Assembly: GCF_014200015.1 (NCBI RefSeq)
Contig: NZ_JACHOT010000003.1
Coordinates: 124,001-188,000 of the forward strand
Direction of reading: 5' to 3'
Length of the DNA: 64,000 nucleotides
Origin: Aminobacter niigataensis
GTDB lineage: Bacteria; Pseudomonadota; Alphaproteobacteria; Rhizobiales; Rhizobiaceae
Below, in pieces: positions 1-4,200 of this stretch (positions are counted from its first letter, which is position 1; each line of letters opens with the position of its first letter). The translations under genes and the position numbers were made by a program. Under the pieces are notes generated by a model that made no database searches, was not told the DNA's origin, and saw only the letters and a list, made by a program, of their open reading frames with translations.

Positions 1-1468
1 TGTCGACGAGCAGGCAGCCGAGCGCGGAAGTGACACCAGGGTTCGGCGGGATGAGAACGACCGGGATGTACAGGTCCCTGGCAAGTGCCACGCCATGCAG
101 TGCGCCCGCGCCTCCGAACGCGACCAATGCGAAGTCGCGCGGGTCATAACCCTTCCTCAGCGAGACGAGGCGCACGGCGTCCGCCATGTTGGCGTTCGCG
201 ACCTTGAGGATCGAAAGCGCTGCCTCCTCGGTGTCCATGCCGAAAGGTTCGGCAATGACGCGGTTGATGGCACCTTCCGCAAGCTTGATGTCGAGTTCGA
301 CCTTGCCACCTGCAAGCTTGGTTCCGAGACGTCCGAGGAAGACATTGGCGTCGCAGTTGGTCGGCTCGGTGCCGCCATGGTTGTAGCAAACGGGGCCCGG
401 GGTCGAGCCCGCTGATTGCGGACCGTTGCGCAGTGCCCCGGCCTTATCGCGCCAGGCCAGCGAACCGCCGCCGGCCCCAATGGTCAGCACTTCGATGCTC
501 GGGAAGCGGATCGGATAGCCGTATTCCACATGCCAATCGTTGGTGACGTGGAGATGGCCATCCGAGCACAGGCTGATGTCCGTGCTGGTGCCTCCCATGT
601 CCAGGCTGATGGAGTTCTTGTATCCTGCCAGTTCCGAAATGAAGCGGCTTGCAATCGCACCGGCGGCAATGCCGGACGCTGCAAGACGCGCGGCAAACTT
701 CGTCGCGCCCTTGGCGGTCATCACACCGCCGCCCGAGTGGAGCAGCAGCACCTCGCCGCTATAGCCGCCGTCCTGCATGCGGCTCTCGAGCTCGGCACCG
801 TATTGTCCCGCGACCGGCCCAAGCACGGTGTTGGCAACGGTCGTATTGAAGCGCTCGTGCTCGAAGATTTCCGGCATGATGTCGCTCGACAGCGAAATCG
901 AAACGCCAGGGAGTTCCTCCAGCAGGATGTCGCGCATCCGTTGCTCGTTCTCGGGATTTACGAACGAATTCACGAAGCAGATGGCAACGTTGTTGACCTT
1001 GCGCTTCCTGATCACGCGGGCAAGTTCGCGCGCCTCGGCTTCATTGACCTCCGAGATGACTTTTCCGGAGTAGTCGATGCGCTCCGTGACCACCAGGCGG
1101 TCGCGGCGCGGCAGATAGGGAGCAGCCATCTCCTTATAGGTGTCCCAAAGGTCGTCGCGGGTGCCGCGACGAATCTCGATGACATCGCGAAAGCCCTTGG
1201 TCGTGACCATGATCGCTGGCGGGAAACGCCGGGTGATCAGCGCGTTCGTCGCCAGCGTCGTACCATGCGAAAACAGGATGATATCGCGCAGGGCGACGCC
1301 GCCCGCTTCGATCCCCTTGAGCACGCCGTCGATGGGGTCCGGCGTCGTCGGCGTCTTGGCCACGTGTATCTTGCCGGAAGCCTCGTTCAGGACGCACACG
1401 TCCGTAAACGTGCCTCCTACGTCGCAGGCAACGCGTACCATTGACCTATCGGTTGGTTCTGCAGTCAT
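1..1468 (-). CDS. hyuA: Hydantoinase/oxoprolinase family protein, HyuA-like (C-terminus beyond window)
   Basis: ATP-dependent hydrolase subunit of the N-methylhydantoinase A / 5-oxoprolinase / acetone carboxylase superfamily, which opens cyclic amides such as hydantoins or oxoproline; the exact substrate cannot be told. About 489 residues are visible and the gene runs off the window start. Two nucleotide-binding loops typical of the family are present: DVGGTFTDV near residue 16 and DMGGTSTDI near residue 290, with SHGTTLATNA between them. The ATG at 1468 is preferred because GGAGGAAG lies about 8 bases upstream; an in-frame ATG at 1441 lacks such a site. A HyuB partner would be expected downstream, outside the window. 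It lies behind amiC and amiR with a long structured leader (1469-1857), so induction by antitermination is likely (inference). Confidence 0.9.
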   Translation of the reverse strand, partial: MTAEPTDRSMVRVACDVGGTFTDVCVLNEASGKIHVAKTPTTPDPIDGVLKGIEAGGVALRDIILFSHGTTLATNALITRRFPPAIMVTTKGFRDVIEIRRGTRDDLWDTYKEMAAPYLPRRDRLVVTERIDYSGKVISEVNEAEARELARVIRKRKVNNVAICFVNSFVNPENEQRMRDILLEELPGVSISLSSDIMPEIFEHERFNTTVANTVLGPVAGQYGAELESRMQDGGYSGEVLLLHSGGGVMTAKGATKFAARLAASGIAAGAIASRFISELAGYKNSISLDMGGTSTDISLCSDGHLHVTNDWHVEYGYPIRFPSIEVLTIGAGGGSLAWRDKAGALRNGPQSAGSTPGPVCYNHGGTEPTNCDANVFLGRLGTKLAGGKVELDIKLAEGAINRVIAEPFGMDTEEAALSILKVANANMADAVRLVSLRKGYDPRDFALVAFGGAGALHGVALARDLYIPVVLIPPNPGVTSALGCLLVD

Positions 1469-1704
1469 AGACACTTCCTCCATCAACAGACGATACAGTT
1501 ACGGTCGTGCAGACTTCGCGCCCTTTCAGACACGGAGTTTCAATTCCGGGCATCGGATTTTTTTGGATTTCAGGTAAAACATCACCTCAATGCAGATTTT
1601 CTCCGCATTATCCTGATGTTTGAATTTTGATAGCTTCGTTGCTAGCGTTTATTACTTCACGCTCAAGCAACCGACGAAATCGGATGCTTCATAAAAAAGC
1701 AGAA

Positions 1705-1743
1705 ACAAAAAAGCTCTCGCAGGCATATTTCCCACGAGAGCTT
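1705..1743 (-). terminator. Intrinsic terminator in the hyuA leader (putative ANTAR-controlled attenuator)
   Basis: On the minus strand AAGCTCTCG (1743-1735) pairs perfectly with CGAGAGCTT (1719-1711); four further pairs, two of them G-U, extend the stem inward and leave a loop of about 7 bases. It is followed directly by a T-rich stretch (TTTTGTTT). It sits between amiR and hyuA, about 240 bases before the hyuA start, so it would stop transcription before hyuA. Its 5' arm overlaps hairpin P2 at 1738-1751, so the two structures exclude each other. The rest of the 1469-1704 leader shows no gene. Confidence 0.85.
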
Positions 1744-1773
1744 CTTTGCTCAATTTCTTTCGCAACGTTGCGA
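1738..1773 (-). promoter_or_regulatory. ANTAR-type dual hairpin (P1 and P2) in the hyuA leader
   Basis: Minus strand, in order: P1 TCGC-AACGTT-GCGA (1773-1760), an 8-base linker, then P2 GAGC-AAAGAA-GCTC (1751-1738). Both loops are hexaloops with A at position 1 and G at position 4, the recognition signature known for ANTAR antiterminator proteins such as AmiR, NasR and EutV. The 3' arm of P2 is part of the 5' arm of the terminator at 1705-1743. AmiR bound to P1/P2 would therefore stop the terminator forming and let transcription reach hyuA. The structure is seen in the sequence; the binding is inferred from the adjacent amiR gene. Confidence 0.75.
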
Positions 1774-1780
1774 TGATCTA

Positions 1781-1809
1781 TTGGTACTGCGACATATCGG
1801 CACTGTCAA
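1781..1809 (-). promoter_or_regulatory. Putative promoter of the hyuA transcript
   Basis: TTGACA at 1809-1804, 17-base spacer, weak -10 TACCAA at 1786-1781. Transcription would start just before hairpin P1, as expected for a leader under antitermination control. The spacer shares GTGCCG...TCGCA with the matching region upstream of amiC. The -10 is poor, so the call is tentative. Confidence 0.45.
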
Positions 1810-1857
1810 GGGATTGATTCAGGTGAAACTAAATTTACTTTGCCCTATCGGCAATGC

Positions 1858-2478
1858 CTACAGCAGGTCCCGCGCGGTGATCACCGCCATGGCGATCGCC
1901 TCGATGGTCGTGCGCTTGTTCATGGCCTGCTCACGCAACGTCTCGTAGGCGACCTGTTCCGACACGTTGTTGGCGGCCATGAGAATAGCCTTTGCCTTGT
2001 CGATGTCGCGATGCGCTTTCAGTTTCGCATCCATGCGCTCGACGCGCAGCCGCAATCGTTGTTCCCGCCTATGGTTATTCACGCTGAGCAGCAAATTGGC
2101 CAATATGCCGAAAGTGCGTAGCGGCAAGCCGATGACTGCCTGGGCACGCAGGCGCAGCACCTTCTCCACGATGATCGGATTCTCGTAGTCGACGATGGCA
2201 ATCAGGACCGCTGGAGGATCGTCTGCATTCCAGTTCAGGACGATGTCGCCCTCGACGATGGGGCGAACGAAGACGAAAACCACATCGGTGTTCGCCGGTA
2301 TTTCAGCCGGGGGCGGCCAGTTGGTCTGAACCTGGCAGCCAATTCTGTTCAGGTGCTGCCACAACTCCTCGCCTTCGCTGCTTTTTGGCTGCAGCAAGAG
2401 GACCCGAAGGTTCCTGAGATCCTTGATCAGGATGGGTGCCGATCGTTCGTTCGGCGAATGGGGGCTACGTGATACCAT
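1858..2478 (-). CDS. amiR: AmiR-like ANTAR-domain antitermination regulator
   Basis: RNA-binding positive regulator. The N-terminal part (about residues 20-130) resembles the AmiR pseudo-receiver, without a clear phosphorylation site. A coiled segment with LRLRVERMDAKL follows, then an ANTAR domain at the C-terminus with the characteristic AKAILM...SEQVAYETLREQAM pattern. AmiR proteins bind paired hexaloop hairpins in nascent RNA and block terminators; their activity is held in check by AmiC until an amide ligand arrives. ATG at 2478 is chosen because AAGAGGA lies just upstream; a TTG at 2496 is the alternative. The gene follows amiC after 87 bases, the known amiCR order. Candidate RNA targets lie immediately downstream (1738-1773) and upstream of amiC (3823-3859). 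Confidence 0.88.
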   Translation of the reverse strand: MVSRSPHSPNERSAPILIKDLRNLRVLLLQPKSSEGEELWQHLNRIGCQVQTNWPPPAEIPANTDVVFVFVRPIVEGDIVLNWNADDPPAVLIAIVDYENPIIVEKVLRLRAQAVIGLPLRTFGILANLLLSVNNHRREQRLRLRVERMDAKLKAHRDIDKAKAILMAANNVSEQVAYETLREQAMNKRTTIEAIAMAVITARDLL

Positions 2479-2565
2479 CGTTCCTCTTGGTGGCAACGTC
2501 GGGCTTTCCGCGCCAGCTGCATCGTCATCGATAAGCAGTGCGGGACCCGTTTCTTGGCTACCGGA

Positions 2566-3714
2566 CTAGTTCGAACGTATTGCCAGCCTCCCCCCCCATT
2601 CGTTCGGATCATAATTGGCAAGATAGGGATCGGGCCGAACGGCAGATTCTGACGCCGACAGGATTTCGAACTGGCCGTCAGTCCGAGCGCGACCGATCTT
2701 GGGCCACACATGGGTATGAGCGTTGTCTGGATCTATCCTCACTCGCCCCTGCGGAGCGTCGAACTCGGCCCCCAGAATTGCCGGCCGTAAGATATCGACC
2801 TCATCCGTGTCGGACTTGCACATGGCCTCGGCCACGATCTTCACCTGGAAATAGGCCGCCTCCCAGCACATGTTCGTCACCATGTCGTCGCCGAACCTTG
2901 CCGCATAGCGCTTCATGCAGGCCTCGTTTTGCGGGCTGGACTGGGCCTGGAAGTAGGTGGCCGAGGTAATGTGCCCTGCCCCGGCCTCGGTGCCCATGGC
3001 CCGGATGTCGGATTCGCTGGTGGTCAGACTTGCAATGGGCATGGTCTTGGGATCGAGCCCTGCCTCGGCAAACTCCTGATAGAAGTGGACGATGCCTTCG
3101 CCCACGAAATTGCAGAAGATCACGTCGGGTCGGCTGCGCTTGATATCGGCAACCAGCTTTTTGTAGGCGGAGCGCGGCGCATCCAGCTTGAGGTATCCGC
3201 GATCGGCGACCTGGCCACCGTGGGTCACGACCATCTCCGTCATGATACGATCGGACTCGCGCGGCCAGATGTAGTCGGAACCGACCATGTAGAACCGCTG
3301 GCCAACATGGTTCAGCAAATACTCTGCCAGTTGCGTGCTGTTCTGGTTGGGTGCCGCACCGCAGTAGATTGCGTTGCGGGAATATTCGAAACCCTCATAC
3401 TGGGCCGGGTAGCAGAGCAGCCCGTTGCGCCGTTCGACGGCCCGCAACACAGCCTTGCGCGAACTCGACATGTAGCAGCCGAATATCACCCTGATCCCGC
3501 TCTCGATCAGCAATCGGTTGGCCAGCCTGTTATAGAGAAATGGGTCGCCACCCGGATCGAAATGGATCGGAACGAGTTCGCGTCCGTTGATCCCACCGGC
3601 CTGATTGACTTCATCGATCGAAAACAGCGTGGCATTCAGCATGCTACGCTCCATGACCGCAGTTACTCCGGTTTGGGAGAACAGGACACCGACACTGATC
3701 GGTTCTTTGGTCAT
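2566..3714 (-). CDS. amiC: AmiC-like amide-sensing protein (substrate-binding-protein fold)
   Basis: Cytoplasmic ligand sensor related to the urea/short-chain amide binding proteins AmiC, FmdD and UrtA (periplasmic-binding-protein type I fold). At 382 residues it is close to Pseudomonas AmiC. The mature-type sequence starts immediately with EPISVGVLFSQTG and has no signal peptide, which fits a cytoplasmic regulator rather than a transporter component; no permease genes are adjacent. Family motifs include GGDPFLYNRLANRL and FGCYMSSSRKAVLP-like text around residues 65-100. ATG at 3714 has GAGGG 7 bases upstream; a longer reading frame upstream has no such site. It heads the amiC-amiR pair and would sequester AmiR until ligand binds (family knowledge). 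The ligand is probably a hydantoin, ureide or amide related to the hyuA substrate (inference). Confidence 0.85.
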   Translation of the reverse strand: MTKEPISVGVLFSQTGVTAVMERSMLNATLFSIDEVNQAGGINGRELVPIHFDPGGDPFLYNRLANRLLIESGIRVIFGCYMSSSRKAVLRAVERRNGLLCYPAQYEGFEYSRNAIYCGAAPNQNSTQLAEYLLNHVGQRFYMVGSDYIWPRESDRIMTEMVVTHGGQVADRGYLKLDAPRSAYKKLVADIKRSRPDVIFCNFVGEGIVHFYQEFAEAGLDPKTMPIASLTTSESDIRAMGTEAGAGHITSATYFQAQSSPQNEACMKRYAARFGDDMVTNMCWEAAYFQVKIVAEAMCKSDTDEVDILRPAILGAEFDAPQGRVRIDPDNAHTHVWPKIGRARTDGQFEILSASESAVRPDPYLANYDPNEWGGRLAIRSN

Positions 3715-3790
3715 ATGCGCCCTCAAAATCCCGGTTCCCTCAGGCATGTCAGGGAGCCGTCCGATCTGGGGGCGCCCTGAACCTCGAAAC

Positions 3791-3828
3791 AAAAAAGCGC
3801 CCCCTGCGAAGAAACCGCAGTAGAGCGC
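3791..3828 (-). terminator. Intrinsic terminator in the amiC leader (putative ANTAR-controlled attenuator)
   Basis: Minus strand: GCGC-TCT-(A)-CTGCG (3828-3816) pairs with CGCAG-GGG-GCGC (3808-3797). This gives a 12-pair stem with one bulged A, a 7-base loop GTTTCTT, and TTTTTT at 3796-3791 right after it. It lies 77 bases before the amiC start. Its 5' arm overlaps hairpin P2 at 3823-3836. Confidence 0.8.
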
Positions 3829-3859
3829 CATTGCTCGATTGTGAGGACGCAATCCTCAC
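3823..3859 (-). promoter_or_regulatory. ANTAR-type hairpin pair in the amiC leader
   Basis: P2 is GAGC-AATGGC-GCTC (3836-3823), a hexaloop with A1 and G4, with stem bases identical to P2 of the hyuA leader; its 3' arm overlaps the terminator. Upstream, GTGAGG/CCTCAC (3859-3841) forms a second hairpin whose loop reads ATTGCGT, seven bases with A1 and G4, or five if the A-T pair closes. P1 is therefore atypical. The arrangement suggests that AmiR also controls its own operon (inference). Confidence 0.6.
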
Positions 3860-3863
3860 CCTG

Positions 3864-3892
3864 ATCTTGGCTTATGCGACGGCACCAGTCAA
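3864..3892 (-). promoter_or_regulatory. Putative promoter of amiC-amiR
   Basis: TTGACT at 3892-3887, 17-base spacer, CAAGAT at 3869-3864. The -35 is good and the -10 weak. Transcription would start a few bases before hairpin P1. The spacer contains GTGCCG and TCGCA, as in the promoter upstream of hyuA. It overlaps the 3' end of the decayed RidA gene. Confidence 0.45.
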
Positions 3893-4200
3893 CTCGTTGC
3901 GCAGTCCTCTGCGCCGGCAGCAATGAGAGGCTCTGGTGCGTTCACTCCGCATGCATACCATGGGACGTAGGCGATCAGGTCCAGGAGGGCGTGCGCGCCG
4001 GGTACGTCCTGAGGCCCACGATAATGGTGGTGGACACCGGCTTCAGGCCGGGGAAATGCACCGCCCATTCGTCCATCCCCTCGGCGAAGCTGTCGCCGCG
4101 ATCGTGGAAGCAGGCGCGGCGCACGACATTTTCGAGCGACGTGCCGGTGGCCTCGCAGATCGCAGCCACGTTCTTCAGCACGTAGCGCATCTGCGGGTTT
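3889..4200 (-). pseudogene. RidA/YjgF-family remnant, 5'-truncated and frameshifted
   Basis: A minus-strand frame from about 4200 to 4010 reads like the middle of a RidA-family deaminase, with MRYVLKNVAAICEATGTSL, ENVVRRACF, then MDEWAVHFPG and PVSTTIIVGLR. It then runs into another frame, where the family's C-terminal text resumes in the next frame as VPGAHALLDLIAYVP, ending at a stop at 3889. A single missing base near 4011 would join the two halves. The usual N-terminal part, about 45 residues, is absent. RidA proteins often accompany amide, ureide and pyrimidine degradation genes, so this fits an older hyu/amiCR cluster. The stretch 4201-4446 shows nothing else recognisable. Confidence 0.7.

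Follow-up and report, generated by a model that had tools for sequence, protein, structure and literature searches.

What controls a hydantoinase-type operon that adjoins an amidase-type sensor and regulator pair in Aminobacter niigataensis? The window, by which we mean the whole 64,000-nucleotide stretch analyzed (positions 124001-188000 of its contig in a 5.28-Mb genome), encodes on its minus strand amiC, amiR and, after a 371-nt gap, hyuA; hyuB, a permease-like ORF and a DRL_cat/SAF oxidoreductase lie downstream of hyuA, beyond the window (Table 1). The original prediction read the gap between amiR and hyuA as a leader with two hairpins and an overlapping terminator, and proposed that AmiR brings about antitermination there. 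We put at about 85% the probability that this hyuA leader is an ANTAR-type conditional terminator, with AmiC/AmiR antitermination acting on the hyuA-hyuB-permease operon and on amiC-amiR itself.

Table 1. Features of the amiC-amiR-hyuA region; positions are those of the window unless a locus is named.
Feature	Position	Strand	Details
-35-like TTGACT of amiC leader	3887..3892	-	CAAGAT at 3864-3869, 17-nt spacer; score reached by 0.7% of 300 shuffles
P1 of amiC leader	3841..3859	-	GTGAGG[ATTGCGT]CCTCAC; seven-base loop, A1 and G4
P2 of amiC leader	3823..3836	-	GAGC[AATGGC]GCTC; A1 and G4; short linker after P1
Terminator of amiC leader	3791..3829	-	overlaps P2; -21.1 kcal/mol
amiC	2566..3714	-	ligand-binding protein, Peripla_BP_5; best solved match AmiC 1pea
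amiR	1858..2496	-	AmiR_N and ANTAR domain; best solved match 1qo0 AmiR
-35-like TTGACA of hyuA leader	1804..1809	-	putative -10 TACCAA at 1781-1786, 17-nt spacer
P1 of hyuA leader	1760..1773	-	TCGC[AACGTT]GCGA; 4 bp, hexaloop with A1 and G4
P2 of hyuA leader	1738..1751	-	GAGC[AAAGAA]GCTC; 4 bp, hexaloop with A1 and G4
Intrinsic terminator of hyuA leader	1707..1744	-	shares P2 loop and 3' arm
Second hairpin in hyuA 5' UTR	1578..1620	-	-17.8 kcal/mol; also folds in A. aganoensis, changed sequence, -17.6
hyuA	2..1486	-	hydantoinase/oxoprolinase A; continues past the window as 692-aa ORF of L006
Permease-like ORF, third hyu operon gene	L006 9937-11328	-	membrane protein

AmiC, AmiR, HyuA and HyuB are members of their respective families. 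The AmiR homologue that had been claimed next to the leader is real, with both domains above cut-off (PF21332, 111.2 bits; PF03861, 50.5 bits), and upstream of it stands an AmiC homologue that matches 1pea with an E-value of 8.5e-85, compared with 3e-59 for the urea-binding proteins that come next. HyuA, whose nearest solved relative is an N-methylhydantoinase, falls below the curated equivalog cut-offs of the CapA (501.6 bits against 1000) and ApcC (315 against 1500) models, which represent caprolactamase and acetophenone carboxylase, specific enzymes of the HyuA-HyuB superfamily. Among 57 HyuA loci, from which its own or very near genomes are possibly excluded, its closest named relatives belong to four Aminobacter species (94-98% identity). 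Translation probably starts at ATG 1468, after GGAGGAAG, rather than at TTG 1486. The permease-like ORF itself has no meaningful family match; PF02133 was reached, weakly, by two of the six members of its alignment (best E 8.8e-4), comparison with solved structures gave nothing useful, and the predicted structure has a mean pLDDT of only 34.4. We presume, tentatively, that it may be of the NCS1 type. A relative of this gene also adjoins amiC-amiR in two further loci (L009 and L010). No plasmid record matched positions 1480-3900.

The promoter-like TTGACA, P1, P2 and the terminator occur between amiR and hyuA in the predicted order, with small corrections to their coordinates, and A1 and G4 are present in both hexaloops, as had been stated. 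The P1/P2 linker, AAGAAATT, is 8 nt long (1759-1752, minus strand). AACGTT is self-complementary and RNAfold pairs A1 with U6 within the P1 loop, so that this A1 would be free only with the pair open. The terminator comprises a core (1744-1710), a T-tract (1712-1707) and an extended stem (1750-1704). Its overlap with P2, originally described as inclusion of the P2 3' arm in the terminator 5' arm, is genuine; that description was incomplete, as the P2 loop is used too. The predicted energy of the terminator, about -22 kcal/mol, outweighs that of P1 and P2 together (-10.7, with -4.7 for P1 and -4.0 for P2 singly); hence termination is the predicted default fold and the switch would be off unless a protein holds P2. 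The leader thus has two hairpins of at least 3 bp, A1/G4 in both loops, a linker within 5-12 nt and a terminator overlapping P2, which matches the anatomy published for ANTAR targets.

The same DNA could be read more simply, as an ordinary terminator closing off the amiC-amiR transcript, with two hairpins ahead of it by chance, hyuA being constitutive or otherwise controlled. The terminator is indeed strong alone and directly follows amiR, and the second 5'-UTR hairpin and the long leader would allow other forms of control. Several observations speak against this. 1) A promoter-like sequence precedes the hairpins, P1 beginning 7 nt past the putative -10; 2% of 300 shuffled versions of the 70-nt segment match or exceed the promoter score, the -10 is weak, and a stricter scan of 1400-4000, which covers the -35-like motifs of both the hyuA and the amiC leader, returned zero sites. 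2) P2 together with its loop agrees exactly with the 13-nt eut element AGCAANGRRGCUY, of which 137 loci contain nine occurrences (window included, six loci repeating the window region dropped, L020 and L050 being the same DNA); eight of them belong to amiC or hyuA leaders, and the ninth, in L074, is unrelated. 3) When the window was scanned strictly for a pair of 4-bp hairpins with A1/G4 hexaloops and an overlapping terminator behind them, one site was found, and just 2 of 824 whole-window dinucleotide shuffles contained the combination. Since the window holds four strict hairpin pairs when no terminator is required, the overlap with the terminator is what makes the hyuA leader rare. A relaxed form of the dual-hairpin-plus-terminator scan yielded 10 matches across 131 loci and 886,462 bases (window included, some loci overlapping, four that repeat the hyuA-leader site dropped), situated upstream of amiC (L019, L024, L037, L038, L052), of hyuA (window, L040) or of an ABC binding-protein gene (L124, L125 and L134, which repeats L125).

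The original prediction found the hyuA leader and missed a second ANTAR-type leader, upstream of amiC (3791-3892, minus strand), which our hairpin-terminator pattern scanner likewise does not recognize. With one leader before hyuA and another before amiC, the circuit is probably autoregulatory too.

A covariance-model search over homologous leaders had been proposed as a check, and its outcome in part favors the prediction. Alignments A5, A10 and A11 were used; A3, A4 and A6-A9 were set aside because MAFFT had mis-registered their rows with a seven-base P1 loop, and A5 and A11 retain a P1 misregister in two such rows, those of L019 and L024. In A5 (8 leaders, 7 distinct, amiC and hyuA mixed) 94.4% of cells are paired, and four of the eight pairs show changes on both sides. 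The amiC leader of the window is in no model's training set. Model R3 lacks the rows of both the window and A. aganoensis (L040) and contains the amiC leaders of three other Aminobacter species, L019 and L024 together with the L041 hyuA leader; among the best 150 of 1974 candidates in the genome it places the hyuA leader first (22.9 bits) and the amiC leader, matched over 3823-3855, second (21.2 bits). The genome-wide E-values are 0.31 and 0.70, respectively, and the strength of these matches is in rank and position, not in E-value. Model R1 recovered the held-out amiC leader as second of seven genome matches (best 150 of 1633 candidates); the five below it were discarded for lack of an overlapping terminator. 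Model R2, whose training set consisted solely of the amiC leaders of three Aminobacter species, put the hyuA leader at the bottom of its 17 matches in the window, with 6.0 bits, and placed the amiC leader second in the genome, below site C4:146862 (best 150 of 325 candidates). First rank under a model built from other leaders is hard to reconcile with chance hairpins before an ordinary terminator, and P1 and P2 are moreover identical in L040, though this is a close genome; we therefore regard that explanation as improbable. Rfam detected no family at gathering threshold in the window, and a permissive search over 1600-3950 gave three sub-threshold matches only. Some other attenuator, such as a leader-peptide or His_leader-type element, could draw on a weak His_leader match; at 24.5 bits (E 0.35) this is far under the gathering score of 49, and we rejected a His-leader-type attenuator on score. 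An attenuator of this general kind appears very improbable.

How far do relatives retain this arrangement? Proximity of amiR to hyuA was found in 14 of the 57 HyuA loci and additionally in L015 and L018, which with the window makes 17 clusters in which amiC-amiR accompanies hyuA. Conservation is stronger in the amiC leader than in the hyuA leader. A P2 with A1/G4 is present upstream of amiC in 13 of these 17 clusters (window, L040, L037, L038, L052, L048, L050, L051, L053, L058, L088, L015 and L018), its loop having seven bases in L048, L058 and L018; L050, identical to L020, was missed by the automatic test and read by eye. Variant P2 loops begin with C in L044 and with G in L049, and in the Hyphomicrobiaceae MAG L039 no P1/P2 amiC leader was recognized. 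The automatically flagged ccggatg[ACGGCG]catctgg of L059 was left uncounted, as its overlap by eye is just a 4-bp stem before a T-run. For the hyuA leader, the expectation that homologues would keep A1/G4 held in A. aganoensis, where both hexaloops are retained, and failed in A. anthyllidis, A. carboxidus and A. ciceronei (L037, L038, L052), where the P1 loop GACGCT has lost A1 (now G) and the P2 loop AAAAAG has lost G4 (now A). Most members of the Methylopila group, read by eye, have hyuA leaders with P1-like hairpins containing one mismatched pair and with P2 loops mostly of seven bases, e.g. TAAGGGA. Linkage to amiR brings no enrichment of a strict P2 plus terminator ahead of hyuA (2 of 14 linked against 2 of 41 unlinked loci, p = 0.27). 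A loose rule gives 7 of 14 against 3 of 41 (p = 0.0013), a difference that is indicative only, the rule having been framed after some leaders had been read and the loci being related; L081 and L087, with little upstream DNA, were left out, and this fuller count replaces an earlier one without wobble pairs (7 of 14 and 0 of 41, respectively). In L124 and L125, from the same family as the window, a dual A1/G4 leader separates amiR from a downstream UrtA-like ABC binding-protein gene, the product of which in L125 scores under the UrtA curated cut-off. L037 (minus strand, about 1311-1255), L038 and L052 have a third leader with an overlapping terminator, situated downstream of amiR; in L037 this leader precedes an XRE-cupin regulator gene. 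Its P1 is CCCGC[ACCGAT]GCGGG in L037 and L052 and CCCGC[ATCGAA]GCGGG in L038, with A1/G4 constant and other loop bases varying, and its P2, GAGC[AAAAAA]GCTC in all three, is without G4.

The genome encodes five ANTAR genes, amiR included; AmiR is therefore a likely, yet not the sole, candidate, and one of the other four ANTAR proteins might be what acts on the hyuA leader. A related hyuA leader in the Rhodobacteraceae MAG L041 (3758-3830; P1 GACATT, P2 AACGAA, overlapping terminator) lends this some weight: no AmiR was seen at that locus, and the AmiR profile matches a single protein of that genome, which is of another, receiver-plus-ANTAR type and is encoded beside an NMT1-like binding protein; we take this pair to be of the NasT/NasS type. 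The hyuA leader of the window, however, lies directly between amiR and hyuA and has a sibling at amiC; in three Aminobacter species (L037, L038, L052) the amiC-amiR and hyuA units stand side by side in opposite orientation with a hairpin-terminator leader on each; and no P2-plus-terminator leader was detected around the other four ANTAR genes by the scanner, which also misses the amiC leader of the window. Hence we consider control by another ANTAR protein to be unlikely, and retain AmiR as the probable regulator.

A different departure from the dual form is seen in ten relatives, whose amiC leaders have P2 only (L015, L016, L017, L018, L020, L026, L044, L051, L053, L088). The best -10 lies 7-9 nt from the first hairpin in all ten, and 4-12 nt from it in the twelve dual leaders tested; in 5 of these 22 leaders (amiC of L040, L037, L019, L024 and L051) the promoter score is no better than in shuffles (p above 0.05). 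The 48 nt upstream of P2 contain no A1/G4 hairpin of at least 3 bp in nine of the ten, and L026, the tenth, has two, both overlapping the -35. Across 397 genomes of the order, a promoter-plus-P2 pattern matched in nine and its reversed form in one. An overlapping terminator accompanies six of the nine matches, namely five already-known amiC leaders and L147 (L020 and L147 by eye), and L144, L150 and L151 show none by eye. The L147 leader (1501-1590) is P2-only and precedes a carbon-nitrogen hydrolase gene (PF00795, 297 bits), with no AmiC/AmiR match in the 3 kb covered. It is conceivable, if on balance doubtful, that the amiC leader of Methylopila, Hansschlegelia, Chelatococcus, Methylobacterium and their kin is a one-hairpin ANTAR switch, in which the transcript would start at or a few bases before P2, without P1, and AmiR would act via a single hairpin, contrary to the published two-hexaloop rule; L147 would then make the leader a reusable module. 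If so, dual leaders (in Aminobacter) and single ones would coexist within one operon family, and the latter would offer a natural test of the need of ANTAR proteins for two hexaloops.

From the arrangement in the window we infer the following course of AmiR binding and antitermination, together with the likely extent of the operon and nature of the ligand. Without inducer, AmiR would be held by AmiC, the terminator would fold, and transcription from the TTGACA promoter would end before hyuA. Once AmiC has bound its ligand, in all likelihood a small amide, ureide or cyclic amide akin to the substrate of HyuAB, AmiR would be released, and its dimer would bind both hairpin loops of the nascent RNA and keep P2 closed. 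The terminator would thereby be deprived of the P2 loop and 3' arm, and polymerase would proceed into hyuA, hyuB and the permease-like gene. Through the amiC leader the sensor and regulator genes would answer the same signal. Compared with 1pea, the AmiC of the window keeps the residues at Y83 and S85, whereas T106 and P107 are replaced by A and Q, and we take these four positions to line the amide pocket. The two substitutions therefore make a different AmiC ligand likely, as far as can be judged from residues. As this ligand should be the inducer, it would offer a route to the substrate of the hyu operon. If the proposed reading holds, AmiC/AmiR would control not only amidases but also a hydantoinase/oxoprolinase-type operon that includes a permease-like gene, and would do so through two leaders in a self-amplifying layout.

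AmiR is the expected actor because of what is established for AmiC/AmiR and EutV, as set out in passages of PMC3369931 and PMC8934654. The amidase operon of Pseudomonas aeruginosa (AmiC-AmiR, amiE), as described in part of PMC3369931, has the same AmiC-type sensor, the same AmiR with N-terminal pseudo-receiver and ANTAR domain, and a dual A1/G4 leader overlapping a terminator. It differs in that the target here is hyuA-hyuB with a permease-like gene instead of an amidase, in that amiC-amiR and hyuA have separate leaders here, and in the A and Q that replace T106 and P107 of its AmiC. With the eut system of Enterococcus faecalis, in which EutV acts by dual-hexaloop antitermination, the hyuA leader shares a P2 of the eut form, a terminator over P2 and a linker in the permitted range (PMC3369931, PMC8934654, relevant passages); that range is 5-12 nt, linkers of 3 or 14 drastically reducing induction (PMC3369931, same passages). 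EutV is phosphorylated by a kinase, whereas AmiR-type proteins are held by AmiC, according to the same portions of these sources. The literature covered by open-licence PMC full text includes, among the matches listed, no paper on ANTAR or antitermination control of hydantoinase, hydantoin or oxoprolinase genes; PMC12316311 mentions both subjects separately in the part available, and PMC3546935, in its abstract, reports two Aminobacter strains with hydantoinase and dihydropyrimidinase activity. The original prediction also held that the target class differs from the amidase operon known for AmiC/AmiR. ANTAR targets other than amidase are not new in general: section 10 of PMC3369931 already lists ANTAR-controlled nitrogen-metabolism operons, among them urea transporters, P-II and glutamate synthase, so only the hyuA target is new. 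Those operons resemble the present one in a nitrogen-related target, a dual hairpin and an overlapping terminator, as does the leader between amiR and the ABC binding-protein gene in L124 and L125; they differ from it in that hydantoinase/oxoprolinase is not among the section 10 targets, the word hydantoin being absent from the main text of that article. Thus, with high probability, the locus combines a known mechanism with a new target operon and a two-leader layout.
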